From Pseudeuparius sepicola (lineage: Eukaryota > Arthropoda > Insecta > Coleoptera > Anthribidae), in contig OY987298.1 of assembly GCA_963920635.1 (NCBI GenBank), forward strand, positions 53,733,949 through 53,797,948: a stretch of DNA of 64,000 nucleotides, given 5' to 3'. Numbering within the stretch: the stretch's first letter is position 1; each line of letters opens with the position of its first letter. A program made the position numbers and the translations under genes. This document shows positions 8,810 through 59,624 of this stretch, one piece after another. The notes under the pieces were generated by a model that saw only the letters and a program-made list of their open reading frames with translations, ran no database searches and was not told the origin of the DNA.

Positions 8810-8939
8810 TATATCGTACTTTAGGAAAGTGTGCACATGTATGAATGAAAATATTTTGCTCATTTCGTTTAATAAAAATCGAAATTCCTTCGCTACCCAA
8901 AACATCATCAAAAAACGATAAAAATATATTTCATATATA

Positions 8940-11574
8940 CAGGGTGGTTCACTTTTATGTGGTAGGACTTTAACATTAGATAGAAAAGGATAATCTAAAA
9001 TGAAAATTTTATATCAACATATATCGGGGAAAGCTTAGTTTCCGAGATACAGGGCATTGAAGTGTTGGAAAAAATATGAAGTATTTTTTACACTGTCCGA
9101 ACCAGTGGAGATATTTAAACCAAATTTGATGTGTAGTACCACCTTTTTGACTACGATATTTAGTGATAATATGAAGGTCCTGAAATAACCAGTGGTGGAG
9201 TTATGGGTTTTCACTATCACTAAATTTAAAAAGTAATTAGTACGGACCTGTCTCACATCAACGTAAATTTTTTTTTCGTAAAGTTCTTTCAATTCTCTAC
9301 AAAAAGTGTATCTTGACATTTTTTTGTATCTGCCACGGTTGTGTAGTAAATAAATTATTTCGTTTCCATCTCAGCCTTTTTTGCCTAAAAATGTGTTTTC
9401 TAAGATTATTGATAAATATCGCAAATAACAGAAATTAATTATGGAACACTTATCGGATTCGGCTATTTTATTTTTAATTTTATGGAAACAATTTTAAAAA
9501 TAAACTGGCACTTGGTTTGAGGTACATTACTTTATTATCATTTTAACATTTTTATCAAATCTGTATTATTTCTTAATAATTTTTATAATTCTAAATTTGT
9601 AGAATTCTAAATTATACCACGACGAGTAAAACATGATTCTTCCGCCCATAAAATGTTATTTAAAAATTGTCTTATTTCCTTTGACTACAAAATCCATCGG
9701 CAAAATACTAATGTCCTTTCTGCATCGCCGTACTGGTGAAGATAAGTGTGCCATGGAAAAGAAAATCTTATTGACAGTTAATAATACAATAATCTGTCAT
9801 CCAGTAGATGAACGTAGCAGCGCCGCAGTTTGTCTTTGTTAATAATTAAAATGCCGTTCCAATTTACAAATGAAGAGCAGGCTGACATCCATTTCTGCTA
9901 TGGAGTTGCAAATGGGAACTCTGCGGAAGCAGCCAGAGAATACCGGAGGCGATTTCCAAATAGGCGCCATCCGCGTCCCTCGGTGTTTGTTAACATGCAC
10001 CGGCAATTCAGAACTCGCGGTCTGAGAACTAGAATCGTCGAACGAGGAAATGAAAACAATATCCAACAAGTCAGACGCAACAATGAGATTCTTCGTGAAT
10101 TCGATAGGAATCCTACAACAAGTAGCAGAAGAGTGTCAGTGGCCCTACGTGTTTCAAAGTCTGCAATTTTGCGAGCTTTAAAAAGAGATCACAGGCATGC
10201 GTATCATCTACAACCCGTACAAGGTTTAAGGCCCGGCGATGCAGAAAGAAGATTAGTGTTTTGCCCATGGATTTTGGAGTCAATTGAAGGAAATAGACAA
10301 TTTTTAAATAACATTTTATGGACGGACGAGTCGTGTTTTACTCGTCGTGGAGTAGTAAACTTTCATAATCAGCATATTTGGGCACAAGAAAACCCACATG
10401 CAATCCGGCCAAGAAATTTTCAGGTCGAATTTAGTGTCAATGTTTGAATTGGACTGTACAACCATCATCTGTTTGGACTCTTTTTTTGCCACAGCGAGTG
10501 AATGGTGACAATTTTTTGGAGTTTTTAGTAGCTGAGCATAATAATATGTGGGAAGACATTCCTTTAAACTTAAGATTGTTGGCTTGGTTCCAACTTGACG
10601 GCTGTCCTGCACATTTTCACCGAAATGTGAGGAACTGGTTAAATAATAACTTTCCAAATAGGTGGATCGGACGAGGGGGACCGGTCGCTTGGCCACCACG
10701 TTCTCCGGACATAACACCTCTGGACTTCTTCGTATGGGGATTTTTAAAAGAACAAGTCTATGCGACTCCTGTAGAAACAAGGGAACAACTTATTGATCGT
10801 ATCAGAAATGCGTGCGATGAATTGAGAAATGGCAATTTAATCGATGCTGTTCAATTCGTTAGGCGTCGAAGTGAATTATGTGTGCAACAGAATGGATCAC
10901 ATTTTGAACAATTGTTGAATGTTGTACAAATTTAGAATTATAAAAATTATTAAGAAATAATACTAGATTTGATAAAAATGTTAAAAATGTACCTCAAACC
11001 AAGTGCCAGTTTATTTTTAAAATTGTTTCCATAAAATTAAAAATAAAATAGCTGAATCCGATAAGTGTTCCATAATTAATTTCTGTTATTTGCGATATTT
11101 ATCAATAATCTTAGAAAACACATTTTTAGGCAAAAAAGGCTGAGATGGAAACGAAATAATTTATTTACTACACAACCGTGGCAGATACAAAAAAATGTCA
11201 AGATACATTTTTTGTAGAGAATTGAAAGAACTTTACGAAAAAAAAATTTACGTTGATGTGAGACAGGTCCGTACTAATTACTTTTTAAATTTAGTGATAG
11301 TGAAAACCCATAACTCCACAACTGGTTATTTCAGGACCTTCATATTATCACTAAATATCGTAGTCAAAAAGGTGGTACTACACATCAAATTTGGTTTAAA
11401 TATCTCCACTGGTTCGGACAGTGTAAAAAATACTTCATATTTTTTCCAACACTTCAACGCCCTGTATCTCGGAAACTAAGCTTTCCCCGATATATGTTGA
11501 TATAAAATTATCATTTTAGATTATCTTTTTCTATCTAATGTTAAAGTCCTACCACATAAAAGTGAACCACCCTG
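8940..11574 (+). mobile_element. Tc1/mariner-like transposon with ~650 bp terminal inverted repeats
   Basis: The element starts CAGGGTGGTTCACTTTTATG at 8940 and ends with its inverse at 11574, flanked by TA on both sides (8938-8939, 11575-11576). The inverted repeats run to about 9601 on the left and from about 10926 on the right and are nearly identical, so mirrored open frames appear at 9035-9319 and 11195-11479. Those frames are repeat sequence, not genes. The single gene inside (9851-10935) is a broken DUF4817/DDE transposase whose stop codon falls inside the right repeat. Near-identity of the repeats suggests relatively recent activity of the element or of gene conversion between its arms. 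Confidence 0.9.
9851..10935 (+). pseudogene. Tc1/mariner-like transposase (DUF4817 helix-turn-helix plus DDE), broken
   Basis: The chosen start is the ATG at 9851, where the product begins MPFQFTNEEQADIHFCYG. The N-terminal ~60 residues fit the DUF4817 helix-turn-helix seen in insect Tc-like transposases. The DDE core follows: WTDESCF (first Asp), QLDGCPAHF (second Asp) and PPRSPDITPLDFF (third Asp, 36 residues after the second). A TGA at 10445-10447 replaces a position where the family has tryptophan, and a one-base slip in a T-run near 10482-10488 shifts the frame. The second half resumes and ends at 10935. Such enzymes cut and paste the element at TA sites. As it stands the gene cannot make full-length protein, though both breaks are minor and may be sequence-error prone. 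Confidence 0.85.
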
Positions 11575-11782
11575 TATATAATACTTTTCGAGTACCTATT
11601 TAAATACCGACTTATATCATAATAGTATAATAATACTACACCTAACTACCTATAATATTTTCTCAACTTTTACCTAGGTACCTACTTAAAACTCTTGAAA
11701 GGTGCAATACAAATATCTGGTCTCTCTCTGTTATCTATACGTATCATTCTGAATTGCCGACGTTCTCATAATTATTATTTCG

Positions 11783-12440: not shown

Positions 12441-14829
12441 TTAACCCTTTAAGTCCGGAATTTACTTTTTACAATAAATTTTATTCCAAATACAGAATAT
12501 ACAGTCCCGAATTACATAAAAAAACATAAAATACATTTAAAAAAACTCAAAATATTTAATTAACTCAAAAAATGGTGGTTACACTAAGCAACCAGTAGGA
12601 CTTATTCGCTACTATGATAAATTAAAAAACAATTTCTCTTATCATTCAGGCATAACCCTACACCACATGTTGAACAGCCCCACATAATCCTATGTGCGTC
12701 CTTCTTTGTGCTGCATACTGCACAACGTCTTGATGTACTGTATAGAGGCATATGGGCCACATTTTTAGTTCTTTTTTCTATCGGAACATATTTTTTTTAT
12801 AATGATTTATATTATCATTAGACTTGCGTCCTTTCTTCTTAGGTAAACATCCTGTGCCAATCAATCCTGAAGCAACATTAATTCTAAATTGTTTCAAATC
12901 TGGATCTTTGTTGAAACAAAATGTATGCGTTGACTACTGTTGTGTCCACAAAATGCCAGACTATGCGATGCTACCATTTTTTACTTTTCCTATCTATGGC
13001 GTAACATTTTTTTAATATGTCAGCTTTATCAACTGACCCCATATGTTTATTGTAATCCACAACTAATTTTGGACAATCTATTTCTTGTAATGTGCCATCT
13101 TTATTTCGTCGGTTAGTGGTGACTGCATCTTCGGGATCGTGATAATTCGACAAGAAATGTACGGGCTTCTTATCTTTCCATTTTAGGCACACTAACGTAT
13201 GGTTGGTCATTCGCCAATCATATTGACCCCTGGAAAGTTTCTTGTCGTCTATAAAATCGTCAGGTAAGTATTTCTTCCCCTTCCTTAGAGTTCCGCAACC
13301 ACATATTTTCTCTTGTTTCAGGTCCCATAGTAACGGAACACTAGAAAAGTAATTATCAAAAAATACCCGATGATTTTTGTTTTTCAACTCCTTTTGTTGT
13401 TCTTTGACCACTCGTCCTCCCAAATCTTTTTCAGGCAGATCTCCTATTTTTCCCGTGTATATTTGGAACTCACAAACATAACCAGAATCGTCTGCCCGCA
13501 CCCACACTTTATATCCACATTTAGTGGGTTTTGCCGGCTTATATTGCTTCATGCTTGATCGTCCTTTATATTTTGTCATGCTCTCATCAACGGCTTGAAA
13601 TTCTCCTGGAAGATAGCAATCTTTGTAGATTCTAGAAAGCGTTTCCAAAAGCGGGTCCACTTTATAAAGCTTATTATAATTTGGCTCTCCCTTTTTAGGT
13701 TGCAAGCTGTTATCAGCAAAATGCAGATTACTGAGCAGCCAATAAAATCTATCACGGGGAATAACCTTAGAAATATAAGCATCTCTAATTTCTTCTTGTG
13801 ATGACCAATAGTCTTTTAGGCTAGGAAGTTTTTTTACCCCCATCAGTAAATTTACTCCAAAAAATAGCTTCATTTCCTTGCATGAAGTTGGCTGAAAATT
13901 CCTATTTCCAGTATTAGTACTCTTCGGGGTGGCATATAAATTGGTATGGAATGCTATCGATTCCATCAATTGCTCTGGAAATAAGCACAAAAATATATCT
14001 ACCAGACGTTCGTGTGCATCATCCCTATTTACGCCGCTGGGAGAATCAAAAACAGGTTGTTCTTTTGAAAAATTCTGCTTTGTCCAAGTCACCTGTGAGA
14101 ACGAAATGGTGGTAGTTGGAATTATGCGTAATTTTTCAGCTATGTAAGAAAGTGGTTCATCATCACTATCAATTTCCATGTTTTGTGGTAAAATGCCATT
14201 GGTGTCCTCTTCAAGTTCCAAAAATGTATTTTCATCGCCACGATCATGTGAATAAGATGGTAAATCCTGAATATCCTCATCTTCTGATACATAATCGTCT
14301 GCCAAGGATTCGGTATCAGACGGGATTTCAGATAAAATTGCAAATAATTGGTTGTTATCCATTTGTTCCAATTCTTCAAAATCCCATTTCCGTTTTTCTA
14401 CAATTACACAAAAAATATTGACAACGTTGATATTCCTGGTGGTTACTTTAGGTAACCGTAACCACCATATATTTGAGGTTATAAAACCCAGACCGGTACC
14501 AAAGTTTTTATTTTTTGGGTAAATATACAATCATGCATACATAATATGTTGATACTTACTGGCCATTTCGAATTTCTGAGAATAATTTCACGTTTATCAC
14601 AAAAAAAACGTTTATTATACGTGGAACAATCTTCAACACAAAGTACAATATGCTTTACAGAGAGAACGATGCAAGTGCAGACCGTAAAACATTTTTTTCC
14701 CAATAGATGGCAGCATAGGTATAAAACCAAAGCGGTAGTTGCTCAAAGGCACCAGTAGGATTGAACTAACAAATTTTTTAATCTGTGGTTTCTTGGTCTG
14801 ACCAGTAGGACACAATACCGAGTATTTAA
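12441..14829 (-). mobile_element. piggyBac-like element, decayed
   Basis: A TTAACCCTTT motif at 12441 fits the usual piggyBac terminus (TTAA target followed by CCC). The transposase body lies at 12602-14362 on the - strand. The motif ACCAGTAGGA occurs at 12591 just outside the transposase stop and twice beyond the 5' side (14750 and 14801), so it is probably a subterminal repeat. A TTAA at 14826 may mark the other edge, but no clean CCC-type terminus adjoins it, so the right boundary is uncertain. Confidence 0.6.
12602..14362 (-). pseudogene. piggyBac transposase, broken near the C-terminus
   Basis: The long frame opens at 14530, but the natural start is probably the ATG at 14362 (MDNNQLFAILSEIPSDTES), followed by the acidic N-terminus typical of the family. 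The DDE_Tnp_1_7 core follows with Asp in AVDESMTKYKGRSS, Asp in VFFDNYFSS and Asp in MGSVDKAD. After RKSKKW an in-frame TAG (12971-12973) stands where tryptophan is usual (the next residues read HRIVWHFVDTTVVNAYILF). Two frame changes follow, one near 12880 and one in a T-run near 12793. The final segment is the C-terminal cysteine-rich domain, including RRCAVCSTKKDAHRIMWGC and CSTCGVGLC, ending at a TAA at 12602. The protein would excise and insert at TTAA; this copy is dead as written. Confidence 0.85.
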
Positions 14830-25374: not shown

Positions 25375-26289
25375 ATTTATTGAGGCAATTGCCTACCAAA
25401 CTCGTCGCCCCCCACTGGATTTTTATGAAATCTACTTGGATAATGACATCACCTAAGATTTTTTTATTGAACCAGTTTACAAAAGCAACTCCAAATTTCC
25501 TGAAAAAAATGTTGGGGCTTCGACTTGGGGTCAGCCTCTCAGATCAAATATAACTATATGGGTTATTCGATTGTTGAAGAGAGCGCTAACACCTATACCT
25601 TTCTGACACTCTGAGAGACCAGAGGGTTATTTATAATTGTGACAAATAGCCATTGGCAGGGATAAATCAGGTTTAATATATCTATGCATGCCAAGCATTT
25701 TGATTACAGTGGTTTTTAATTCTGCTTTCTAGCTCTAGCATTTTGTTAAACAGCTATTTTTGACATTTATGACCTGCCAGAAATATCACAAACATCAATC
25801 AAAATCAAGAAAGTAAATATATCATAAATCGAAATAAATTAATCCATTTATTTTAGAAATCTTTTTGTTCGTATAATAATACAACAATTTTCACTTTTCA
25901 AAAAATAAAAGCTTTTATGTCTTCACTCAACGCTGTTCAACAACATAAAACACACAGAACTGACAATCACTGACAGAACACCAAGGTTAGAATCAGCTGC
26001 AAGTGACCAAGCACAATATTGTTACACAATTGTGTTATCAGTTAAAAAACCATTCAAGGTGTGCAATCAGCAAGCTGTTTGCAAGTGATTTCTTACACTT
26101 AGTAACCTTAAATAAAATAATAAGCTTTACTTGGTCACAAGTAGTGAAAAAAAATACAAAATAAAATAAGCTATAAAGCTGAAAATGCAGCCAATAACTA
26201 GTTGTCATGATTATAGTGCCCTCTGACTTTAAAACAGATCTAGTTGTGGTGAAATGTTGCATCTAGTTATACTTGATCTGAGCCCTGTA

Positions 26290-26964
26290 CAGGGTGGCTC
26301 ATTATAAATTGACACCCCCTTAACTTGTTAGTTTTCGAGATAAAAAAAAAGTTTTTTTACAAAAGTTTTAGACACTAATACAAAGTTTTTTGTGACGCTA
26401 TTGAACCTTATACAATGTGTTCTAGAAAGCCACAGCAGACATAACTTATGTTTTGTTAAATGGAACATTTTGCATATTTTTGGATTATTAAATTCTACAC
26501 ATTTTTCCGATTCCAACGAAGTATATATGTCATAAGTTTGCTTCAACCGTTCGTTCGGAACTGAGCCTTTTTTATGAGGGATTACTCCTTGGGTCATAGA
26601 GGTTGCCATGGAAGACAAATGCCAAATTATAATAATAATTATTGCCAGTTTATTATAGTATATTCACACTTTGGAAAACAAAGTGTTCCAAAAGTTCCGA
26701 ACGAATGGTTGAAGCAAACTTATGACATATATACTTCGTTGGAATCGGAAAAATGTGTAGAATTTAATAATCCAAAAATATGCAAAATGTTCCATTTAAC
26801 AAAACATAAGTTATGTCTGCTGTGGCTTTCTAGAACACATTGTATAAGGTTCAATAGCGTCACAAAAAACTTTGTATTAGTATCTAAAACTTTTGTAAAA
26901 AAAACTTTTTTTATCTCAAAAACTAACAAGTTAAGGGGGTGTCAATTTATAGTGAGCCACCCTG
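26290..26964. mobile_element. 675 bp TA-flanked foldback MITE
   Basis: CAGGGTGGCTCATTATAAAT (26290) is inverted at the right end, finishing AGTGAGCCACCCTG at 26964, with TA on both sides. Arms of about 270 bp are nearly identical, which creates mirrored open frames at 26328-26618 and 26574-26993. These are not genes. Confidence 0.85.
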
Positions 26965-27412
26965 TACACATCTGTGCACTAAAATGGCCATAAAATCTTA
27001 TTTTTCTTGTAATATTCTATTATAAGCATAATTATCAATCCCAAAATTGTATTATATGTGAACCTAAAAGGTAGCAGTCAGATGTGTGATATACTTATTG
27101 CATCAAATCTCATTCTCAATCAGACATGAAACAAATAAATATGCTGAACTTTTTGTCGTTTATTGTAGGTTTAAAGCTGAATTTAGCAATGTACCTTATA
27201 TTAATATGTTAGTTTGTAATTGAGTACAAAAGGATTATATAGACAAATAATAAAACAGTTGAAGTTCATTTTATTTCCATTGCCTCCATCTTGTTCTTGT
27301 CATCCGCCTCTAAAAAATACTTATCTAAAATTATGATATACAGGGTGATTCAGTCATGATGAAATGACTTCAGTCATCATGAAAAAAATGTACTAACAAA
27401 TCAGTCGGTTTG

Positions 27413-27662: not shown

Positions 27663-28269
27663 CTTCAACATATATATTTTTTAACTTTTCAATGCCCTTG
27701 AAGAATACCAAAGAAAGTCAAGAGGTGTACAGTCTACAAACTATCCGATAGAGAACGACACTTTCTCAGTTTTATTACCACTTGAAAATTTAGTAGAGGA
27801 TACTCTGACTAGTCCGATGTTAGCTGGGGCTGTGTCTGATTCTCAAAGCAAATCAAATCAAACTAGCAGTGAATTAGCAAGGGAGAGGGAAACAATAGAA
27901 TATGAAAACCAATTTGAAGTAAGCACAGCTGACGACAGTGATTATATACCTGAAGCAGAATCAGATTTAGAGTCAGATAGCGCATCGGAACCAGTAAGAA
28001 GTGACAATGAACAAGGGGAAACAAATGTTACTGAAGCTGCTTCTTTTACAGACAGTTTACCTTTGGTTGAAGTTTCAAACATCCCTTTTGATGGCGATGC
28101 ACATAAAGAAAAAAAAAAGGAAACTAAAAAAACAAGGGTGAATGGAAATCCACCGAAAACAAGAAATATTAAAAGAAATGGCTTGTGGCATATGGGACAA
28201 AATGCTTTGGTAATTGGCAACACCAAACTAGTTTCCAATATCTAATGGAAATTGTGTATGGGTCTTTCG

Positions 28270-28340
28270 GAGGTGTGCAGACCACGACAGGTACCTGTTT
28301 CGGGCTTGTTGGCCCTCATCAGGCAGACGTAGCGCACCTC
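28270..28340 (-). ncRNA. Hammerhead ribozyme motif, unit 1
   Basis: Read on the - strand from 28340: stem I outer strand GAGGTGCGC, internal loop, CTGATGA core, stem II GGGC-CAACAA-GCCC, GAA, stem III ACAGGTACCTGT, then C at the cleavage position and GTGG to start the other side of stem I, closing with GCACACCTC. All invariant core bases are present. Predicted cleavage is between the complements of 28286 and 28285. Stem III is a short palindrome, the form expected to work best as a dimer in tandem transcripts. Confidence 0.85.
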
Positions 28341-28797
28341 AGCCGAAAAGACCCAAACACGTTGGCTTAGTGGAAAAGGAACTAGTATAATGCGGTGAGC
28401 ATTTACCATCCAACGCCATCTAGCTGGTACTGCCAAAACCAAAGCAATGTGAGTGTGTATATATTGACCGGTCGATCGACATATAAAAAGAACTCGGCAA
28501 AGCGGCGCGGCACGGTGGAAAAAACCAGAAGAAGCATACATACGGGGGCCAAGAAACTCGTTTGATTCATCACCGAGTATCTTCTAATATATAGAAATCA
28601 ACAAGGATCGAATCGTGAGTTTCAATCCTCGTGTGCTTACGTCTATAGCCAAACGATGATTAAACAGAATGAATATTTAGTGTCCCCATTATAATTTTAA
28701 AAGAAATGGCTTGTGGCATATGGGACAAAATGCTTTGGTAATTGGCAACACCAAACTAGTTTCCAATATCTAATGGAAATTGTGTATGGGTCTTTCG

Positions 28798-28868
28798 GAG
28801 GTGTGCAGACCACGACAGGTACCTGTTTCGGGCTTGTTGGCCCTTATCAGGCAGACGTAGCGCACCTC
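28798..28868 (-). ncRNA. Hammerhead ribozyme motif, unit 2, with core mutation
   Basis: It is the same layout as unit 1, 528 bases further on, but the core reads CTGATAA instead of CTGATGA because of a single change at 28845. This is the G8 position, whose base takes part in catalysis, so the motif is expected to be inactive or very weak. The stems are otherwise unchanged. The predicted (lost) cleavage site is between the complements of 28814 and 28813. Confidence 0.8.
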
Positions 28869-29433
28869 AGCCGAAAAGACCCAAACACGTTGGCTTAGTG
28901 GAAAAGGTACTAGTATAATGCGGTGAGCATTTACCATCCAACGCCATCTAGCTGGTACTGCCAAAACCAAAGCAATGTGAGTGTGTATATATCAACCGGT
29001 CGATCGACATATAAAAAGAACTTGGCAAAGCGGCGCAGCGCGGTGGAAAAAAACCAGAAGAAGCATACATACGGGGGCCAAGAAACTCGTTTGATTCATC
29101 ACCGAGTATCTTCTAATATATAGAAATCAACAAGGATCGAATCGTGAGTTTCAATCCTCGTGTGCTTACGTCTATAGCCAAACGATGATTAAACAGAATG
29201 AATATTTAGTGTCCCCATTATAATTTTAAAAGAAATGGCTTGTGGCATATGGGACAAAATGCTTTGGTAATTGGCAACACCAAACTAGTATATGTCGATC
29301 GACCGGTCGATATATACACACTCACATTGCTTTGGTTTTGGCAGTACCAGCTAGATGGCGTTGGATGGTAAATGCTCACCGCATTATACTAGTTCCTTTT
29401 CCACTAAGCCAACGTGTTTGGGTCTTTTCGGCT

Positions 29434-29504
29434 GAGGTGCGCTACGTCTGCCTGATGAGGGCCAACAAGCCCGAAACAGGTACCTGTCGTGGTCTGCACA
29501 CCTC
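29434..29504 (+). ncRNA. Hammerhead ribozyme motif, inverted unit
   Basis: On the + strand: GAGGTGCGC (stem I), CTGATGA at 29452-29458, stem II GGGC..GCCC (29459-29472), GAA at 29473-29475, stem III ACAGGTACCTGT (29476-29487), C17 at 29488, and stem I return ending 29504. The core is intact. The inner stem I has four pairs including two G.U, an internal loop, then nine positions with one C.A mismatch. Predicted cleavage is between 29488 and 29489. Confidence 0.85.
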
Positions 29505-30909
29505 CGAAAGACCCATACACAATTTCCATTAGATATTGGAAACTAGTTTGGTGTTGCCAATTACCAAAGCATTTTGTCCCATATGCCACAAGCCATTTCT
29601 TTTAAAATTATAATGGGGACACTAAATATTCATTCTGTTTAAAACAAGAAATTACGCATGGAAGGAAAAGCCTATTTGGGTTATCGTAGAACTCGACAAG
29701 GACAGATTTTTCACGATGTTAAGAAAAATGAACGTAAAATGGGGCCACCTTGTCGTTCTGAAACCTGCAAAAAATCAAAGATCAATGGAGAACGTTTATA
29801 GTCAATACTGTAGAGAAGACACCTGTTAAACGTCACAGAAAAGAAATAATTGAGAATTCCAGACGTCAAGCATCCCTGAATTATTTCCTTGATATAAATG
29901 GTGTTAGAAAACAAGTATGCCGTAATACTTATCTTAACACTTTTGGAATAAAAAAATGGACAGTACGTTATTGGATTGATCATAATCAGAAAACAGAAAC
30001 TATAGCTCCAAATTCTTCAATAACTCATTCACAAACTGCTGATGTAGCGTCACGTAAACGAAGAGAATCAGGACATATAAAAGGCAGCAAATAATCTAGC
30101 ACACGTTTTTACCCAAGACCTTCAAGCCGTTAAGTTAGCTCCTCTTACAAAAATTTTATTACAAAAAAAAGCTGAACGTACACAACTTTACAATGTATAA
30201 TCTTCAAAGCCATGAAGTTGTTTGCCACTGGTTCGATGAAACCGCCACAGATCTTGTAGCATCTTCATTTGCAACACGTATTATTCACACATTATCTAAC
30301 ATTTTGCAAAATAATCGTTTGCCAGTTATCCTTTGGTCAGACGGCTGCAATTATCAAAATCGTAACGTAGTATTATCTAATGCGTTGTTACATTTGAGCA
30401 AAGAGTTAAACGTTGATATAGAGCAGAAATTTCTGACCAAAGGACATACACAGATGGAATGTGATTCTGTGCATAGTGCCATCGAAACAAAACTAAAAAA
30501 CAAGGACATTTATCTACCTGGACAATACTGTACTATTACAAGAGAAGCTAGACGCAAGCCTTTTCCATATGAAAGTCATTTCCTTGATTATACTTTCTTT
30601 AAAGACTATTCAGGCAGAAATTTTGGAAGAACAACGGGCGATCTAACGGTTGTGGATATCAAGGCGATGAAGTACAGTAATGGTGAGATTAGTTTCAAAA
30701 CCAACTTTGATCATGAGTATTGTACTTTACCCAGAAGACAGAAAAAAAATGCTGATAGTTTGTATTCCCTTGCCAGTGCTCCTCCTTTAAACAAAGAAAG
30801 AAGAAACATTTCATATTCGAAATGGAAAAATCTTCAGGAACTGAAGACCGTCTTAACTCAAGATTGTCACTCATTTTATAATGAGATTCCCCATGATGGG
30901 CAATCTTAA

Positions 30910-40322: not shown

Positions 40323-41551
40323 TACTTACAAAAGGAACTCTACAGTCTACCCCATGTAGGTTAATCAAGATGATCAATAATTGAAAAGAACCTAAATACT
40401 TTTATCTATCTCCAACGCATTGAGAACCTTTGGAGGCTTAGAGATTGTGAATATATTAGATGTTCGCGCACAACAACTTTGCTCCTGCCGAAGCCAGGTT
40501 CCATCAAAGAAAAAATTATCAAAGAAAAAATGTTCAACTTTTAGTATTTGCATCAATTCATTATTTTTTTTTTTACATAAATAATATGACTATGGGAGGA
40601 GTACACCGTTCTACGGGAGAAGTGGCAGGAGGTCGTAATATATCTTATTGAAATATTATTAAATAAAAGAAAAAGTTTCAGCTTTTAGAATATTCTTCAT
40701 TCAACTCTTTTTTTTAACATAGTTAGTTGGCTGTTGTCAATCGCTCTCCCGCCAACGGGATGGCAGGAGTTCATTTTCTTGGTGAGTTTCATTAATATTA
40801 TAAAATAAAAGATAAACCAAGCTTTAGGAAATGTGACAATGAGAAGTGTTGCCAGCTCATGGACTATATGCATCGTATTATGCTCATTTTTAACTGACTT
40901 CAAAAAAGGAGGAGGTTATCAATTCGGTTGATTTTTATTTTTTTTATGTTTGTTACCTCAGAACTCCGTCATTTATAAACCGATTTGGATAATTATTTTT
41001 TATTTGAAAGGGTATTAGGTCAGGCGATAGGTAGTTCAATAAGGAAATAATTAGTGGAAAGATGGAAATTGCTTTAATCGCTTTATTTGGACCCGATATT
41101 ACTCTCCCAAGTTTTCCCCCTCGAGCGAAGTCGGCGTTAGCCCTTCTGGCCCTAAGGTACCATTTTTCTTCGGTTTTTTGCAAATATCTCCCAAACCATC
41201 AACTTTATCAACCAAATACCTATTATAAAAATAATCTAGAATAAATTTGCTACAAAAAAGTTCTTTGCCATTTGAGTCCTTTTTGATTCTTGCGGAAAAG
41301 TTATGGAAATCATATGCCATATCAAAGTTTTTACATGTTATAAATATTTGTCAGCATTCCAGGTGCACAAGCTGTTAACTTGTTACAAGTATAACAGCTT
41401 TTCAATGTAAACAGCTGTGGCAAAGTACCTACGATTAAGTATTATTAGTGAGTAGTATTGACATAAGATCACTCTTTTCCAAGTGGTGTCCCCAGGAGGC
41501 CTAATCCACTGTTCAAATGTCAAAGTTAGTCGATTTTGTTTTGATGAAGGC

Positions 41552-41737
41552 TGGCAGCGTTGACTGATGTATTTATAAAGACTTCTCACGGCTATAGCTT
41601 CATGTCCTGGAAAACAGATGGTTCTGATGGCTAACAATGTATTCTGCATTGTATTTTATCTCCGGAAAGCGCATGGTGAGCCAAAAATGTGTCAGACGTG
41701 ACAGCCGTGAGCAGTCTTTAATAATATATCAGTCAAC
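41552..41737. mobile_element. ~185 bp foldback MITE
   Basis: AGCGTTGACTGATGTATTTA and its inverse near 41735 enclose a hairpin with TCTCACGGCT paired to AGCCGTGAGCA. It is related to fragments at 15615-15715. Its copy in the second unit is at about 53405-53590. Confidence 0.65.
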
Positions 41738-41768
41738 GCTCGCAGTCTTGATCGTCTTCCTCAATTTC

Positions 41769-42134
41769 TCAGTCATCGCTTTCATCGTCTGCATCGGTAC
41801 ATTTTTTGTCCGACGTCACAGAGCGCTTAAGATTAACATCGATGTCTCTGTCACAATCATCCATATCATCTTCCTCGGCAGCGTTTGTACATGACCGTCC
41901 CATACAATTCATACAGATTCTGGAGCATCGGAGGCCCATTTTCCTGCAACCACACGCTGCGTTGCATCCTTTCGAACATTTGCAGGACACTGTGTTTAGC
42001 AGCGTTTGTGGCGCCGGATCCCTCGCCGCAGGTATGGGAGCCAAACCACATTGAGAATTTTTCCAGCCCCAATCCAGTGGATTTGTATCATCATCACCAA
42101 GTTTGGACTTGATGGTATATTTTTGAGTGCTCAC
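41769..42134 (-). pseudogene. Cys-rich C-terminal domain of a transposon-associated protein, inverted relative to the rest
   Basis: The 121-codon frame reads DWGWKNSQCGLAPIP, then CKCSKGCNAACGCRKMGLRC and MNCMGRSCTN, ending in an acidic tail. This Cys-rich module (CxCxxxC...CGCxxxGLxC...CxxCxGxxCxN) is, from memory, normally the C-terminal end of a long insect transposon-linked protein whose earlier part is the PIN-like domain on the + strand at 42205-42967. Here the two parts face away from each other, so the gene has been rearranged. The function of the module is unknown; metal binding is likely from the cysteines. Confidence 0.55.
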
Positions 42135-42204
42135 GTGCCGCTGATTCGGTGGGAGGTAGGCTTGCGAGATTAAATCGATGTTTGCTTAGAGATTTTGCAA
42201 ACAG

Positions 42205-42967
42205 TTGGAACCACAACTCATTCAGGGTATTTCCCGTGGTTCTGTTGTCATAAAGCCTAGCCACAACCAACTGACCCAGCAGCTCGCAGTACCAAGTACG
42301 CTGAACGTCTTCGGCGATCGCACAACCATCATGCTGCTAATGTTTTTTTATGAGTCCATGACGGCACCTATGCCACAAGCAAAATTTTTGTCTAATGACA
42401 CAAACAAACGAAGATTGATCGACTTGTTACGCGTCAAATTCGAAAGCGAAGGAATCGAAACCGGACAAGCTCCAGAAGATGCCGATGTGCTCATCGTTAC
42501 CACCGCACTCGAGTTATCTCGGCCCGACAATTCGGTCATTACAGTGGCTGAAGATATAGATATCCTGGTCATCTTGGCGGCTCATGTGCCACCCTCCACG
42601 AAAATGTATTTTATGAAACCCGGCAAAGGTTCAACCAAACAACAACTATTTTGCACAACAAGTTTCAATCTCCCGCCGTGTGTGCAAGAAAACATCCTCT
42701 TTTTGCATGCATTTAGCAACCTCTTCGTTTTACAGGCAGGACAAAATGAAATTCGTAACACTGCTGAAGAGTAATGAGGAACTGCAGACAGCTGTTAGGG
42801 TTTTCCGAGACGTGAACGCAAACCCCGATGAAATTGACAAAGCGGGCCAGTTGGTTGTGGCTAGGCTTTATGACAACAAAACCGACCTGTCGCCTGGCCT
42901 ATATACCTACAGAATGGTCCCATTTAAATTCGAAGAAAAAATTCCACCCCTAAGGGTGGAAAAATAG
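42205..42967 (+). pseudogene. PIN-like nuclease domain of a transposon-associated protein, broken
   Basis: The frame 42205-42774 contains AKFLSNDTNKRRLIDLL, QAPEDADVLIVTTAL, then VAEDIDILVILAAHV and MKPGKGSTKQQ. The spaced acidic residues (EDAD, EDID) resemble PIN/FEN-like nuclease active sites. After HAFS the conserved stretch is damaged and the protein continues in another frame at 42714-42900 (RQDKMKFVTLLKSNEELQTA, then DEIDKAGQLVVARLY). Part of the N-terminus is absent and the C-terminal Cys-rich domain is inverted upstream. I know this family only as an uncharacterised protein repeated in insect genomes. The gene cannot be expressed whole here. Confidence 0.5.
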
Positions 42968-43396
42968 GGATGAAATTTCATATTGGACCGATTTCGATGA
43001 TTCTCTTTTTATTAGAAAGGGATTACTTTAGGAGTGGCCCCATTTAAATTAGAAGAAAAAATTCCACCCGTAAGAGTGGAAAATAGGGGATGAAATTTCT
43101 TATTGGACCGATTTCGATGATTCTGGATAAGGTACCCCCTGGAAAAGGGGTACCTTAGGTGTGGTCCCATTTAAATTTAAAGAAAAATTTCCACCCCTAA
43201 GGGTAGATAAATAGGGGATGAAAGTTCATATTGGAACGATTTGGATGATTCTTATTTTATTAGAAAGGGGTTACCTTAGGGGTGGTCACATTTAAGTTTG
43301 AAGAGAAAAATTTTCAATCCTAAGGGTAGACAAATAGGGGATGGAATTTAATATTGGACTGATTTCGATAATTCTTAATAATTCACTAGAAAATCA
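42914..43396 (+). repeat. Minisatellite-like array, four ~120-bp units
   Basis: The phrase CATTTAAATT (or CATTTAAGTT) recurs at 42921, 43041, 43168 and 43289, each followed by an AATTCCACCCCTAAGGGT-like block, a TAGGGGATGAAATTTC-like block and a GACCGATTTCGATGATTC-like block. Units are diverged and vary from 120 to 127 bases. The copy in the second duplication unit is at about 54768-55250. Confidence 0.75.
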
Positions 43397-43799
43397 GAAA
43401 TAAAAAAATTTTAACAAAAAAATTAAAACCGACTTCAAAAATTTGCCCGTATGCACACTTGGAGTCGGTGACAGTAAGTTATAATGTATGTAGGATATGA
43501 TGTATTCATATCTAAATAGATTTTTCTACTCCTATGCTAATAACATACCTATTAGTGACGGTTTAGGTTATAAGTAAGTCCATTATTATGAACACTGATA
43601 CGTAATGACTGATACGTAATGACTGACACGTAATAAAAAAAATTACGTATCTGTTCTTAATTAAAACACAATTAATTATCATGGGTGCCTTGTTAGCATG
43701 GCATCCGCGTCACCATTGCAACTAACCAACATACTAATTGTTGCCTGTCAGATAATCAGAAGTATAGTTTATCTATTATAATAGTTTTTCTTTTGTCGA

Positions 43800-43925
43800 A
43801 GAAAAATTATAATACAAAACTCGAGTTGTAAGCTTATTACATACTCGTGGAATTACAGCACTCGCCGCTGCGCGGCTCTTGCACAACTTTTCACTCATAC
43901 GTAATAAGCTGTTTACAACTCTCGC
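43800..43925. repeat. ~120 bp hairpin
   Basis: GAGTTGTAAGCTTATTACAT (about 43822) pairs with ACGTAATAAGCTGTTTACAACTC (about 43898-43922) around a GC-rich loop (CGCCGCTGCGCGG). Same in unit 2 near 55676-55779. It is a foldback repeat; no gene. Confidence 0.5.
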
Positions 43926-46168
43926 TATGTAATATACTATTAAATTCCTTGCCTTGACTGTCACCAAATCCAAAGATAACTCGATTTAGAAAGAGAAAAA
44001 TATTTCTAAAATTTTAGTTGAAATTAAATGTGCATACGGGCAAATTTGTGAAGTCGGTGTTATTTTTTATTATTTTTAAATTTTTAGTGGAGTGTGCATA
44101 CAGGCAAATTTTTGAAGTCGGTTTTAATTTTTTTTATCAAATGTCGATATTACTAAAATCAACAAAATTTTGACCTGATTAAGTTATATGCATACCATTA
44201 CCCCTGCTTTCCCCTAATGTTCCCTAACTCCTGTTCCTGTGTTCCTGTTTCATATTTTATAGAAAAAGGGGTTTCTATAAAAGTTCTTGATTAAAATGAA
44301 ATGGTAATGAAATATGTATAATTTTTATTTCAAAGGTTTAATTGTATTTCATGTGGGGGTACCATGTTCCTTTTTATTACCTTAAAATATTTCGTCACTT
44401 TATATTATATAATGTTTTACTCTTAGTCAAGTTCAGTTCGGTGAGTGAACTATAAGTAAATAATATGAAAAATTATCTAGAGGGGTGGCACATTTGGTCT
44501 TAGAAAGCAGGCGGCCGACACCCTAGGATCGGCCCTGATGAAGGAATTGGCACTTGTGAAAGCTTGACTTAACAAAAAAAATAGTATTTTTTATTCACCC
44601 ACATTTCACTGCATTTCCAAGAAATATTTTTTCTCTTTAACTTAGTCATTACTAACACCCATCTGTTTAAGATAAAAATGGCTTATATAAGTGGTTCAAT
44701 GGAAATATCTCAGCTACTTTTTAACAGAAAAAATCGGTGGCAGTTGCTATTGACAGCTCTTCCAGGCGACCTTCTTTTGTGATAATGAAAGTTGCTGCTG
44801 TCTACGGCCATCTGAAAAAACCATGGACAAAAATCTAAGTAAAATCAAAATTTTTAAACCACCAAAATAAGTTTAACATACAATTTTTTTGCAAGAACCT
44901 ACGGAATTTATGTATGACATAACTTTTGTTGTATGGATTACCATACAATTTGGACTATTGGGCTCCAAAATTAAATCATATGTAAAAATGTTGTAAAGCA
45001 AAATGTCCCATTCAATTTGATGTGCCACATTTTCCATTTTGTTCTGTATTTACTACAAAAACTTAAGAAAAATTATAATCGTTGTGGTTGATATAAGATC
45101 TAGTTACCTATGGAAATAAATGTGTTATGATATTATTATGACGCGACGTTAGCAATGACATCCCCCACTGGAATTTTTTATATGGAATTAGTAATTCCGA
45201 ATTAACTTAACAAGAAATTTTACTCAACCGTTCCACAAAATGTGCAATTAAAAAATTAGAATACTTGAAGTATGCAGCAGCCGAAATACTAAAGCTGAAA
45301 AGAGGATATGGTGTTGCTTGTTGCGAAAAATAGGTGAAACTACTAGATGTTCCCTAAGCATTTATTGTAATACTTAGTACTATATTTTGTTATTATCATT
45401 TATAATAACTACTTTCACTTTTTGTATTATATAATATAACAATTCTGGATTAGCTATTCGACATTCGAATGTCATAATTGATTATTTATTTCCAGGGGTA
45501 ATTAGATCTTATACCAATCACAAATATTACCAATAATGTTTTTCAAATTTTTATAGTACATACAGAACAAACTGGCAAGTGTGACACATCGAGTTAAATA
45601 AGATATTTCGTTTTATAGAAAACGCGTCATTCGCATTTTTCCAGATAATTTAAGTTTTGATCCCATGAGAGCCCAAATCTAGTCATAATATCTAATATTT
45701 CAAAATTGATATAATACTTGGATTCTCACATTTCTTGCAAACAATTTTTCATATTAAACTTTTTTGTGCACCTCTAGAAATAAAAAGTTAGAGGTTTAAA
45801 AATGTTGAATTTTTTCGATTGTTGGCAATATTTTTGACTTTACAAATTTTATGGTAATCCATACAACAAAACTAATGTCATAGATACATTCTGTAGGTTC
45901 TTGCAAACAAATGTATGTTAAACTTTTTTCCGTAATTAAAAACATTTTAAAAAATTGCAGCAGTTTAAAAATTTTGATTTTTTCCACTTTTTGGCCATAG
46001 TTTTCGCAGGTGGCCATGAACAGCAACTTTCATTATGATGAAAGAAGGCCGCCCGGAAGAGCTTTCGATCGCGCCGGCCACCGATTTTTTCTGTCAAAAA
46101 ATAGCCGAGATATTTTCAGAAAGCCACTTATAAGCCACCTTGTTTATTTATCACTCAAAATATTTTAG

Positions 46169-47474
46169 GATAAAGGCGATTGAAACTGAAATAAACGAGT
46201 TTAATGAGACAGCTGATGAACACAAAGCAAATTTACAAACATTCGCTCAAAAAGAGCTGGATGTAATTCAAGAAATTGAAAGGCTTAAAATAAATCGGCA
46301 GGAAATACTAGAATTAACAGAGGAAATCGAACAAAACACCTTCAAGATGGATGAATCAATTACAGCAGATATTATCATAAAAGAAGAAATTTTATCCGAG
46401 AACATTCTTTTACTTCATCATGAAAATGAAACGACCAAAAACATCGACGCTGTAAGCAGTATCTTTAATTTACTTTTTATTTTATTGTCACAATCATAAC
46501 AGGTTTTAAAATATTTCAATATCATTTGGCACAGTGTTGTAGCCTTAATTAAGTAAAAGATTATATTGCAAAATAGTTAGATAAAAGTCGAATAATGACT
46601 GTCCTCTCACCCGTAATCTTTTACTAAACAATTTAGGTGAAAACTATTTAGATCAGTTTCACCTTATTTAATACAGAGATAACTGCATTAATTTTACAAA
46701 ATTTTATTTATAAAACCTTTTTATAATTATTAATAGTAAACTTGTTTCCAACCAAATTTGTAGGATATCGAAAACTTGAAAAGCAGTGTGGAGGAGGCCG
46801 AGAGAGCTATTGCAGATCTCATTGCTGGATCAAATATTTTTGAAGAATCTCAGTCAAGAATTTCTGAAGAAACTCTACAACATAAACAAGAATATGACCA
46901 CATTCTTATGAAGTTAGAAAAGCTGGCCACAGAAAAAGATTTCCAGCAATATTTAGCAGACATGCAACTGAGACTTTGTGATGTGAATAAATTAGTAACT
47001 GAAGTTTTAGAAAATGAGTCCGAAAATAATAATAATCATATAAAAGAAATTGAAAGGCAACAGAATGAAATCCTACAATTAGAAAACGAGAATAAAGAAA
47101 TTCAAGGGAAAATCAACCAGGAAGTGCTGAATCTTAACAAAGTAAAATTGGATAAAGCCCAAGTTGAAAAGGAACAGGAGAAACTAAAAGCAGAAAAGGG
47201 CCAAATTGAGAATTTATATACGGAAATAAATAAAATTAAAAGCATGGAAGCAAAATTCGTGAAGTTGAAAAACCAAAAGCTCACAAAACAAACTCCTTCG
47301 ATTCCTTCTGATGTCACAGATTTCACTAAGCCAAAAGCCCCAATGAAACCAGTCATTAAAAATAAGCACACATCTGCTCGACACTGGGACAGTGACAGCA
47401 GTGTTGAAGGGGAAGTTAATTGCCTGCAGCATATCAAATCAAAAAGCTCTCAAAAAAATCACAAGTCACATTAA
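46169..47474 (+). CDS. Unidentified coiled-coil protein, exons 3-4
   Basis: Exon 3 is 46169-46451, beginning with the base that completes the arginine codon left by exon 2, and exon 4 is 46764-47474, ending in TAA. With exons 1-2 the protein is 576 residues. Both exons code for Glu/Lys/Gln-rich heptad sequence (e.g. DVIQEIERLKINRQEILEL and EREQEK-type runs). The last ~70 residues leave the coil and become Pro/Lys/Ser-rich (KTPSIP..., DSDSSVEGEV, KSSQKNHKSH), probably disordered. The frames on the opposite strand at 47102-47437 are shadows. The exon pair lies inside the tandem duplication and recurs at 58035-59436. Confidence 0.75.
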
Positions 47475-47656
47475 CAAATCAGTTTTCAAATATGTTTAAG
47501 TATTAGTTAATCAATTTAATCTGTTTAACATAATAGGTATATTTAAATTTCAAGGAAGCCGCCTTTAAATAATAGAAGTTACTTCCCCAAGCCTTCTAGT
47601 TTTAGATCTTTAACAAAATACATATTCAATAATATTGTGTTAGTCAAGCAATTGGA

Positions 47657-47662
47657 AATAAA
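47657..47662 (+). promoter_or_regulatory. Candidate poly(A) signal of the coiled-coil gene (unit 1)
   Basis: AATAAA lies 183 bases after the stop codon. The identical site in unit 2 is at 59619-59624. Confidence 0.5.
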
Positions 47663-47809
47663 TGATTTGTTTTAGGTTTTTTTTGGCTAGTATTCCATAT
47701 TAACCTCACCCTTTCACTCCATTAATATCTTAGATAAAAGATTATTCCAAAAGCAGCAATACTGATTTTAATAAAACTTAATCAGGGGTACTTTCCAATG
47801 TTTTCTTCT

Positions 47810-48150
47810 TATGCTGTGACTCGGAACGTGCTGTTAATTTTGCCACTATAGGCACACATGAATCAGCTGGGTGTGCATTGTATCTTGCTTACGACCAACC
47901 TCCATGTCTGGGAGGATGCTACCCCATTCAAGAAGAAGATATATTTACTGTTATCTTTTCAGTTGGCAGTGCCCATCCGCCTCGGCAAATCTTCCATACT
48001 TTTACACGAAGCAGCAAGAAAAATGAAACAAGATGTGTGAAAGACAACAAATTGTTGAGTAGAAGTTTCACAATTTGGGGCCCTGTCCCGCTTGATTTGA
48101 AAGCAATTTATGTCATATTTTCAGTTTCGAAAAACCAAAGTAGGCCTTGA
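47810..48150 (+). other. Unrecognised protein-like open frame
   Basis: The + strand frame through 47821-48147 reads SERAVNFATIGTHESAGCAL then QPPCLGGCYPIQEEDIFTVI, with several cysteines and a composition less AT-biased than chance frames. There is no ATG at its start and no domain I know. It lies about 350 bases beyond the coiled-coil stop codon and may be a transposon relic. It is duplicated at 59772-60112. Confidence 0.25.
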
Positions 48151-48447
48151 CATGAGGAAAAAATTCATTTTCTGCCTATAAGGTACATTTTTGCTAAGAA
48201 AAGTTGTTCAGAATAAAAAATTATGCCCATGTACAAAGTTTCAGACTAATCAACCTACTTTGATTTTCCCTTTTTTGAAATTTTTTTAAATAAGCAAGAT
48301 ACGGAAAATTTTTATTCTGGCCTAGATTTCTTTTATAACCGGTCATAAATTTTTATTCTGAACATCTTTTCTTAAAGGTACACAGAAAAGGTATTTAACC
48401 AAGGCAGAAAATAATTTTTTTCTTCATGCCAAAGCTTACTTTGACTT
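48133..48447. mobile_element. ~315 bp foldback MITE
   Basis: CAAAGTAGGCCTTGACATGA (48136) is inverted as TCATGCCAAAGCTTACTTTG (ending about 48443). Pairing continues through ATTTTCTGCC/GGCAGAAAAT and TTCTTAAAGGTAC. Same in unit 2 at about 60095-60409. A further GC-richer palindrome (GCCGCTTTCAGC / GCTGAAATTCAGCGGC) lies at 48640-48690. Confidence 0.6.
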
Positions 48448-49134
48448 TTTGTAGCCAAAAATATGAAGACATTACTTTCCTTTGGGGTGACACCCCAAAT
48501 GGTCTTTCACACCTCTTGTTTCTCTTATTCTGTGTATTGATTTAACATTTTTTCTTGAAAAAGTACCTATGTCAGAGGTAACCATGCCCACAAATGAAGT
48601 TTATATTAAGGTTACTAAGCGGAAGCGAGTAAATGCAAGCCGCTTTCAGCTTGCTCTTCTGACAGTTGCGCTGAAATTCAGCGGCTTGCAAGTAGTGTGA
48701 GCACAAATAGTTTCCGATCAGTCGCTTACGCTTGCTGTAAGCGGTCAATTTGCATAAGCGTAATATTATTCCAATATTTATAACTGGTAATATGGTAAAT
48801 ATTTGCCCCAAAAATCCCGAAAACCAGGGGATCCATTTGAAAAACACTTATAAAGATCTTTGTTACATTAAAAAAAAAGCGTTTTTGAGGGTTATTCCCG
48901 GATATGCTGGCATAAACGTCAAATCCATGAACTGTCTAAAGTATCGCGTATGCCTGGAAGTGCAACGTGAAAACGCCGCAGCTATCTATCTATCCTTTCT
49001 TGGCAGACCCAGCAACTCCCGGGATAAGGCCGGCGATGGCCCACGAATCATAAGCCTCGTCTACCTCATTCCCGGAGCCCTGAGCCACTCCTCAACGAAT
49101 CTGCCCTACAGCCATTCGTCTACGACTCAAATTG

Positions 49135-49520
49135 CTAGCCGGGGGGCGATCCCCAGAAGCCAGAAGGTCGGCGGTCTCATTTCCCTCAATGCCCGAATGC
49201 CCAGGCACCCAGGACAGTCACCTTACTCCCTTCGGCCACCAGTTTGAGCAGACTCACCCTACATTCCTCCACCAGAGATGTGGTGTGGTTTGCTCGCAGC
49301 GCTTGAAGAGCTGCTTTGCTGTCGGAGTAGAAGGTCATCTCGCGCCTGCTCACCCGGAGTTTGAGTGATTCCTCCGCCCCCAACATAATAACAAACATAT
49401 CCGCCTGGAACATAGAAGTGTGTTCTCCTAGGGAGGCTGTAAGTTTACAGGCCAGTTCCATGCAGTAGGCGCTGGCCCCAGTTCCCTTCTCCATCTTGGA
49501 CCCATGTGCCTATAGCAACC
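49135..49520 (-). pseudogene. RNase H domain relic of a non-LTR retrotransposon
   Basis: On the - strand HGSKMEKGTGASAYC begins the domain (with His where the first catalytic Asp of TDGSK is expected), then FQADMFVIM, MTFYSDSKAALQAL (SDSKAA carries another catalytic Asp) and, after a frame change near 49205, the WVPGHSGIEGNETAD motif with the last catalytic residues. This order is the RNase H of Jockey/R1/I-type LINEs. Nothing of the reverse transcriptase is upstream, so the copy is 5'-truncated and dead. The larger + strand frames over this region (48750-49247) are shadows. Confidence 0.75.
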
Positions 49521-49962
49521 TATAAAACCACGCAAGAGTAATGTCCGACCAGGGGAATATTTGGCGGCCATTTTGAATCCTACATAAAGCAGATATTTTA
49601 AAATGCGGAATTGTTCAGCATTTGCTATCTCTTTATCATAAGTTCCTTCTATATCTTTATATCCAGTATCCACAAGGCAAGAGTTTTTTTTGTGGAGTGA
49701 TTGATGCTTCTAGCTAATATAGTCAGCCATTCCCAAAGCATGTATTCTTTTGTAATCCCAAAGAAATGAAGATTTCAAAACAATGTAGTGGATAAGCCAA
49801 TTAATTTGTTCTGATTGATCGCCTTCATAAAATTCCGACAAATATGAATTTGATAAAAAAATCATACTTTTACTAACCCATAGAATGTAATCTCACAATC
49901 TGAAGGTAAAAGCTTCTTCGAATTTTTTAGTTCCTCATGAAGCCCATTCATTTTTTGAATCA

Positions 49963-50040
49963 GGGCCATAGCTAGGTGGGGCCAGGGCGGGCAGTGCCCG
50001 CCCCAGAATTTGTTTTGCCCGCTCTCAAAATATCCTCCAA
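49963..50040 (+). mobile_element. Single hAT-like terminus
   Basis: CAGGGCCATAGCTAGGTGGG followed by a GGCGGGCAGTGCCCGCCCC palindrome looks like the end of a hAT-type element. I found no matching inverse terminus nearby, so it is a lone end. Copied at about 61924 in unit 2. Confidence 0.4.
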
Positions 50041-50520
50041 ACATAAAAAATAAAATATATTTTCACATTCTTGAAAATAGATGCTCCTGCCTCTGGAACC
50101 AGTTCATACCAATCGATTTATGGCTAGCGACCTCTCTTTAATAAAGTCTGAACTGAATCGGTTGCGGTGTTTGGCTCCAATACCTGAACCAACACTCTAT
50201 TGAAGACGAAGACCTGTGCATCATGTGTGCATAGTGCATACCTAAGCGCTGTTTCACCACCATTGCTGCAGAATATTTTATAAAATAAAAATGTGCAAAT
50301 GCGTCTGTTACAACGATTTTGATATCTAAAATAAAATGATGATTATGAATCTTAAATTTCACAAGCTAACATGGCATATTTCCTTAGATTTTCTTAAGAA
50401 AAGAGAGTCTAAAGAACAAGCAAGAGTATTTTGGTACCTTTTGGTTTGAAATGAAGTCTATGGCTAGCTGTAGTGTAAGTAAGTATATAACGCATTAGAT
50501 TTTTCAGTTTATTCTTTATA

Positions 50521-53621: not shown

Positions 53622-53987
53622 TCAGTCATCGCTTTCATCGTCTGCATCGGTACATTTTTTGTCCGACGTCACAGAGCGCTTAAGATTAACATCGATGTCT
53701 CTGTCACAATCATCCATATCATCTTCCTCGGCAGCGTTTGTACATGACCGTCCCATACAATTCATACAGATTCTGGAGCATCGGAGGCCCATTTTCCTGC
53801 AACCACACGCTGCGTTGCATCCTTTCGAACATTTGCAGGACACTGTGTTTAGCAGCGTTTGTGGCGCCGGATCCCTCGCCGCAGGTATGGGAGCCAAACC
53901 ACATTGAGAATTTTTCCAGCCCCAATCCAGTGGATTTGTATCATCATCACCAAGTTTGGACTTGATGGTATATTTTTGAGTGCTCAC
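53622..53987 (-). pseudogene. Cys-rich domain of transposon-associated protein, unit 2 copy
   Basis: It is identical in translation to the unit 1 frame at 41769-42134, including the CGCRKMGLRC segment and the acidic tail. It has the same inverted placement relative to the PIN-like part. Confidence 0.55.
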
Positions 53988-54057
53988 GTGCCGCTGATTC
54001 GGTGGGAGGTAGGCTTGCGAGATTAAATCGATGTTTGCTTAGAGATTTTGCAAACAG

Positions 54058-57800: not shown

Positions 57801-58034
57801 ATTAAAAACATTTTAAAAAATTGCAGCAGTTTAAAAATTTTGATTTTTTCCACTTTTTGGCCATAGTTTTCGCAGGTGGCCATGAACAGCAACTTTCATT
57901 ATGATGAAAGAAGGCCGCCCGGAAGAGCTTTCGATCGCGCCGGCCACCGATTTTTTCTGTCAAAAAATAGCCGAGATATTTTCAGAAAGCCACTTATAAG
58001 CCACCTTGTTTATTTATCACTCAAAATATTTTAG

Positions 58035-59436: not shown

Positions 59437-59618
59437 CAAATCAGTTTTCAAATATGTTTAAGTATTAGTTAATCAATTTAATCTGTTTAACATAATAGGT
59501 ATATTTAAATTTCAAGGAAGCCGCCTTTAAATAATAGAAGTTACTTCCCCAAGCCTTCTAGTTTTAGATCTTTAACAAAATACATATTCAATAATATTGT
59601 GTTAGTCAAGCAATTGGA

Positions 59619-59624
59619 AATAAA
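59619..59624 (+). promoter_or_regulatory. Candidate poly(A) signal (unit 2)
   Basis: This AATAAA has the same spacing from the exon 4 copy as in unit 1. Confidence 0.45.

Follow-up and report, generated by a model that had tools for sequence, protein, structure and literature searches.

The 64-kb stretch of DNA analysed here (64,000 nucleotides, referred to as the window) contains a 1474-nt repetitive element with hammerhead-like segments, which raises the question of what kind of mobile element this is and which enzyme inserts it. A preliminary description of the window had proposed a non-autonomous element with hammerheads, of the kind represented by Penelope-like elements and retrozymes. 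This proposal is supported, and was strengthened by copies found elsewhere in the genome: the element is likely a non-coding retrozyme, about 528 nt in unit length, that carries a type I hammerhead and depends on a Penelope-like element (PLE) in the same genome for mobilisation in trans.

All parts of the arrangement first described are present, a direct dimer of a unit of about 528 bp and an inverted partial copy. The two units of the dimer (28169-28696, 528 bp, and 28697-29225, 529 bp) are identical in 521 of 529 columns, and are followed by a 64-bp piece of a third unit and then by the inverted partial copy at about 29289-29642. One hammerhead-like segment is present in each unit of the dimer and in the inverted copy, on the minus strand in the dimer and on the plus strand only in the inverted copy. 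A unit boundary is indeed crossed by the inverted copy, as had been noticed; the crossing corresponds to a 35-nt tail, which lies between two putative start sites, A and B, and which most of the insertions examined have at one end. The features of the element are listed below, with cut sites deduced from the hammerhead layout and scores for the Rfam family Hammerhead_HH9 (HH9).

28156-28167, no strand: left target-site duplication AAAACAAGAAAT, 12/12 identical to the right one
28168-29288, minus strand: A-site arm, outer end 28169, comprising units 1 and 2 in full and 64 nt of a third unit
28169-28696, minus strand: unit 1, 528 bp
28263-28341, minus strand: hammerhead of unit 1, core intact, predicted cut 28286/28285, HH9 29.7 bits
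28697-29225, minus strand: unit 2, 529 bp
28791-28869, minus strand: unit 2 hammerhead, probably inactive, with G8 replaced by A at 28845 (core CTGATAA), HH9 26.8 bits
29289-29640, plus strand: inverted arm begun at site B, outer end 29640
29433-29511, plus strand: inverted-arm hammerhead with an intact core, predicted cut 29488/29489, HH9 29.7 bits
29571-29640, plus strand: start module, with ATTTTGTCCCAT at 29571-29582, site A after 29605, GGGGACACTAAA, and site B after 29640; common to the autonomous Penelope element, with similar spacing
29606-29640, plus strand: tail of 35 nt between start sites A and B
29641-29652, no strand: right target-site duplication AAAACAAGAAAT, 12/12 identical to the left one

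Within the start module (29571-29640), TGTCCC can pair with GGGGACA. The element has no long open frame, the longest stop-free stretch being 113 codons, and its G+C content is low (43%). Five of the seven substitutions between the two units of the window fall at CpG; CpG decay was rejected as a general pattern, since CpG accounts for 20 of the 291 single-unit changes across loci. The insertion had been placed at a TTAA site, which is wrong: the element is flanked by the 12-bp duplications, and TTAA is its own terminus at start site A. The sequence said to be interrupted, described as a transposon gene, is transposon-like at best, with a right-hand ORF that matches DUF7869.

The genome search for the 528-bp unit suggested in the preliminary description was carried out with the 1474-nt element as query against the assembly of 769,049,646 bases in 16 contigs, and found at least 305 matching pieces, dispersed across the genome. 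The copy in the window is one member of a genome-dispersed family. A total of 39 loci were mapped, comprising the window copy and 38 loci fetched from the best-scoring matches, a non-random sample; unit positions are numbered from the predicted hammerhead cut, and the end classes A and B were assigned by eye from alignments. The usual layout, found at 29 of the 39 loci, consists of a left arm on the minus strand and a right arm on the plus strand, with the 3' side of the RNA outward at both ends; ten loci (L011, L016, L018, L023, L026, L030, L031, L035, L038 and L042) are one-armed or unclear.

The outer ends of the arms fall at two sites, A at about unit position 117 (range 114-127) and B at about 152 (range 148-164), B being 35 nt further 3'. 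In 28 two-armed insertions each outer end falls at A or B; 27 of these combine one A with one B, one (L033) has A at both ends and none has B at both, an excess of the A+B combination with a two-sided binomial p of 2e-7. L020, with an aligned end at 94, was counted as B after an internal deletion was noticed; without it, 26 of 27 insertions are A+B. The left arm of another two-armed insertion with a 12-bp duplication, L013 (2494-5133), starts at unit position 59, which is neither A nor B. Duplications in the 27 A+B insertions are 12 bp long in 13 cases, 13 bp in seven and 14 bp in two, with single cases of 7, 10, 11, 15 and 17 bp. Their A+T content is 88%, compared with 71% in the 20-bp flanks (26 of the 27 insertions). 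The base preceding the cDNA is T in 21 of 26 cases on the A side and in 13 of 26 on the B side, counts that are partly confounded by chance matches to the element.

The Rfam covariance check of the hammerheads gave a divided result. Hammerhead_HH9 was the sole family at E <= 1 in the 64-kb window, exactly at the three predicted places (E-values of 0.0023, 0.0023 and 0.02 for 64 kb, at 29.7, 29.7 and 26.8 bits), but none of the three reaches the curated HH9 cut-off of 52 bits, and the search of the window at the gathering threshold gave no matches. The layout comprises CTGATGA, stem II (4 bp, loop of 6 nt), GAAA, stem III (4 bp, loop GUAC) and C17, and stem I can be extended through flanking complementarity. 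A type I hammerhead in the element is well supported, though it scores under the Rfam cut-off. Three full hammerheads had been claimed; those of unit 1 and the inverted copy have intact cores, but the middle copy is broken, having CTGATAA. Mutation of G8 to C eliminated cleavage in the hammerhead of a lizard PLE (PMC11167929), and the change of G8 to A in the middle hammerhead of the window should abolish cleavage.

Of the 156 units at the 39 mapped loci, 139 retain all 13 of the core positions tested, and every locus has at least one such unit. The most frequent break of the core is C3 to G, found in eight units, and G8 to A occurs in one unit of the 156, that of the window. A model of 34 base pairs, drawn from the same sequences, was applied to the majority sequence of each of the 39 loci; 1308 of the 1326 cells are paired, compared with 354-658 in slid controls. 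Covariation within the hammerhead was sought at the 39 loci, and no two-sided compensatory change was found; the 36 changes at paired sites consist of 18 that preserve pairing through G-U and 18 that break it. A competing fold is favoured by about 10 kcal/mol over the native hammerhead in a simple energy model, the corresponding figure for the HH9 consensus being about 1 under a different set of constraints. Activity of the hammerhead is uncertain, because its native fold lies about 10 kcal/mol above the full ensemble in this model. Scans of IMG/VR with exact patterns for the hammerhead and the unit returned no matches, and neither did exact-pattern scans of GTDB contigs.

Judged by its hammerhead, lack of an ORF, base composition and duplications, the element is a metazoan retrozyme whose unit is longer than reported. 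Metazoan non-LTR retrozymes likewise consist of short tandem repeats that lack coding capacity and contain a type I hammerhead with helix III, have a G+C content below 45% and duplications of more than 4 bp, and coexist with PLEs (PMC7229834). They differ in unit size, a reported range being about 170-400 nt (PMC7229834) as against 528-529 nt here, which agrees with the original remark that the unit is unusually long. The two-armed inverted insertions with fixed A/B ends are a further difference, being unmentioned in the sections of that paper available to us. Metazoan retrozymes are expressed as linear and circular RNA, and a circular or unit-length RNA would fit the copies of the present element. 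The plant LTR retrozymes are also non-autonomous hammerhead repeats, but have a type III hammerhead, LTRs with PBS and PPT, 4-bp duplications and a size of 600-800 nt (PMC4918200, as described in PMC7229834 and PMC7761336).

The insertions themselves resemble those of PLEs, which share the tandem and inverted arrangement, the short target-site duplication, and two start sites bounding a tail of 30-40 bp (35 nt here) that is carried at one inverted end (PMC3846280, PMC11167929). AT-rich insertion sites, with duplications mostly of 12-13 bp, are another point of likeness. In contrast to PLEs, the element has no ORF, reverse transcriptase (RT) or endonuclease and has a longer hammerhead, and its sequence sharing with the one PLE copy compared consists of the start module. 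The element thus behaves as a PLE insertion but is not a PLE, because it encodes no enzyme. PLEs (or LINEs) are put forward as no more than candidate movers of animal retrozymes, a hypothesis, in PMC7229834, PMC7761336 and PMC11722881, and within the open-licence literature searched, in the portions accessible, mobilisation of retrozymes by PLEs appears only in that form. The Penelope insertion marks on the copies examined point to the enzyme that may move elements of this kind.

An autonomous PLE with RT and GIY-YIG domains exists in the same genome as the retrozyme. A genome search for GIY-YIG gave at least 132 matches, and among the matches listed, neighbours on opposite strands less than 10 kb apart are ordered minus then plus in 14 of 14 cases, outward as in the retrozyme. 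In one PLE type, whose copies repeat in tandem about every 3136 bp, an open frame of 819 aa contains RVT_1 and GIY-YIG domains; a minimal hammerhead-like motif, judged by eye, lies upstream of this ORF. A stretch of this type (L047, G000:C1:34988300-34993300), searched against Rfam, gave no family at E <= 1. Its tandem copies have no mismatches in the first 1566 positions compared, followed by a length difference of 1 nt, and are therefore probably young.

Five inverted pairs were judged from the GIY-YIG matches to be of this PLE type, and their outer ends were read in 161-nt pieces. One end falls at a site A' and the other at a site B' in all five, and the pairs are flanked by shared words of 12-17 bp. 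The piece from L055 holds about five element bases and was read by eye, because the aligner had misplaced it.

A short module, TTTTGTCC[C/T]AT ... GGACAC.AAA, is common to the retrozyme and the PLE, and its spacing relative to the two start sites is similar in both. Counted from the beginning of ATTTTGTCC[C/T]AT, site A lies at 35 nt in the retrozyme, compared with about 30-37 nt in the PLE, and site B at 70 nt, compared with about 65-71 nt, with GGACAC.AAA between A and B; the PLE spacings are given as ranges because of chance matches between element and target. Windows of the two elements anchored at the start sites align with a score of 24, reached in 2 of 5000 shuffles, in a comparison made post hoc. 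The highest scores among the 3136 PLE windows come no more than 2 nt from the anchored position; for the best of the 528 unit windows the offset is at most 4 nt. The pattern TTTTGTCCYATN{25,37}GGACACNAAA occurs 681 times in the genome (312 + 369) and its reversed control 0 times; the matches listed, all on contig C1, are of the retrozyme or the PLE type. Pairing of TGTCC with GGACA is possible in both elements, and the helix is present in the predicted fold of the retrozyme and absent from that of the PLE, so that a common hairpin is a proposal only. Likeness beyond the start module was sought between the 528-nt unit and one PLE copy, and the longest exact match was 12 nt, with a BLAST E-value of 0.65. 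The helper assignment rests on one PLE type, and other PLE families exist in the genome.

The proposed integration of the retrozyme, read as a satellite of Penelope, is target-primed reverse transcription from both nicked strands, with one start site per strand. Multimeric transcripts would be cut by the hammerhead to 528-nt RNAs, which would then be closed into circles. The PLE protein would recognise the short module present on both RNAs, and its endonuclease would make staggered cuts in both strands of AT-rich DNA, leading to the duplications of mostly 12-13 bp. Reverse transcription would then be primed from the 3' ends of both DNA strands, at A for one and at B for the other, as in the observed pairing, and the cDNAs would extend variably, often over more than one unit, and be joined where they stop, giving the inverted tandem arms seen in the genome. 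We infer both the identity of the helper and the circularity of the template from sequence.

A lizard PLE studied in vitro cuts and extends both target strands with a preference for AT-rich DNA, and its reverse transcription begins inside the RNA, at two adjacent sites bounding the genomic tail (PMC11167929). The two strands showed no difference in start site in that study (PMC11167929), and the lizard PLE thus does not explain the A+B pairing rule. A protein dimer holding one RNA could give this pairing, and a dimer of the PLE protein has been predicted (PMC11167929). In rotifer PLEs a 31-bp tail is "optionally present" on one inverted end (PMC3846280), and as far as the accessible open-licence literature goes, the new regularity that each insertion pairs one A and one B appears only as such an optional tail. 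The nearly strict pairing offers a concrete rule for joining two Penelope cDNAs to one target, unreported in the available part of PMC11167929. There is about an even chance that one RNA circle is copied simultaneously, from two neighbouring starts, onto both cut strands by a Penelope dimer, that obligate A+B is the general mode of Penelope integration, and that animal retrozymes are satellites captured via a start module of about 70 nt. Since the retrozyme bears both the PLE start module and the insertion signature (27 insertions), a direct test of what moves it would need one protein and one RNA.

The nature of the template is reflected in the arms. In 24 simple-armed A+B insertions the longer arm is that of A in 12 and that of B in 12; 31 of the 48 arms exceed one unit, and the longest reaches 6204 bp (L021). 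No preferred position of the inner ends was found (50 ends, KS p 0.20), and the enrichment at unit positions 475-528 (9 of 50, p 0.095) is not significant. Inner ends at the hammerhead cut (unit position 1) were rejected as a BLAST edge artefact of the permuted query, the position being exact only in L046. Non-consensus alleles were surveyed in the 28 two-armed insertions wherever both arms cover the site, and 49 of them are fixed in all units of both arms, compared with six fixed in all units of one arm only. Forty-six of the 49 recur at other loci and therefore mark subfamilies, not single molecules, and three are private to a locus (L022, L032 and L045). As alleles fixed within an arm are mostly shared by both arms, the arms of an insertion were most likely copied from the same source sequence, and their common template would probably be one RNA circle, which is the simplest account. 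Another 183 alleles are each confined to one unit, and a further 17 have a mixed distribution among several units; 76 of the 183 recur at other loci, above what independent new mutations would readily yield. Unit variants in the tandem arms of L021 (2279-8482) and L044 (3576-6537) follow periods of 3 and 2, respectively, and L011 has 20 variants common to several, not all, of its units; either multi-unit templates or later unequal exchange would fit these patterns.

A linear multimer from a tandem array could take the place of the circle with the other steps unchanged, an alternative that is possible if doubtful. Divergence is 1.0% among units within an arm, 0.9% between the arms of a locus and 2.4% between loci, values by which the source arrays are fairly homogeneous themselves, so that homogeneity of units alone is no proof of a circle. 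Hammerhead mutants of the lizard PLE still insert in vitro (PMC11167929), and the multi-unit variants of L021, L044 and L011 could reflect a multi-unit template. Multimers should, however, be cleaved by the hammerhead present in every unit, and both the free position of the inner ends and the excess of single-unit over mixed alleles (183 against 17) argue against a linear template. Less probable still, and on balance unlikely, is that the unit is a shrunken Penelope element, i.e. its repeat minus the ORF, and not an independently arisen retrozyme. An origin of retrozymes by PLE reduction has been proposed (PMC11722881), and the start module, the insertion signature and hammerhead-like motifs are found in both elements, but there is no further similarity to the one PLE copy compared, and helix III is 4 bp here whereas PLE hammerheads are described as having none (PMC7761336).

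It is highly improbable that the inverted arms arose by self-priming on an antisense template, a route suggested for rotifer PLEs (PMC3846280), or through foldback or recombination of the DNA at a later stage, given that both ends adjoin the same duplicated target, with 27 of 28 insertions having them at A and B, and that the inner junctions vary freely. Least of all can the element be ordinary satellite DNA spread by unequal exchange, with an incidental hammerhead: its units are tandem and the long arrays L011 and L021 look re-expanded, but the dispersed copies have duplications, mostly of 12-13 bp, which refute this as the main explanation, and the hammerhead core is intact in most units. 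Mobilisation of a retrozyme by a PLE thus is the preferred reading.

Several other repetitive features were observed in the window. An inverted repeat of 277 bp (26286-26562 and 26693-26968, 97% alike, with a spacer of 130 bp), of a foldback or MITE-like type, is located about 1.2 kb to the left of the hammerhead element. Inverted repeats of about 670 bp (8934-9604 and 10922-11580, 97%) enclose two ORFs, one of them with DUF4817, in a unit resembling a DNA transposon. A piggyBac transposase ORF (DDE_Tnp_1_7) lies on the minus strand at 12974-14530, its best match being a protein of Callosobruchus chinensis with 68% identity over 92%, from which a beetle is the probable host. The right-hand part of the window is occupied by a tandem duplication of about 11.8 kb (40365-52039 and 52219-64000), whose copies, including the repeated ORFs, are 99.7-99.9% identical.
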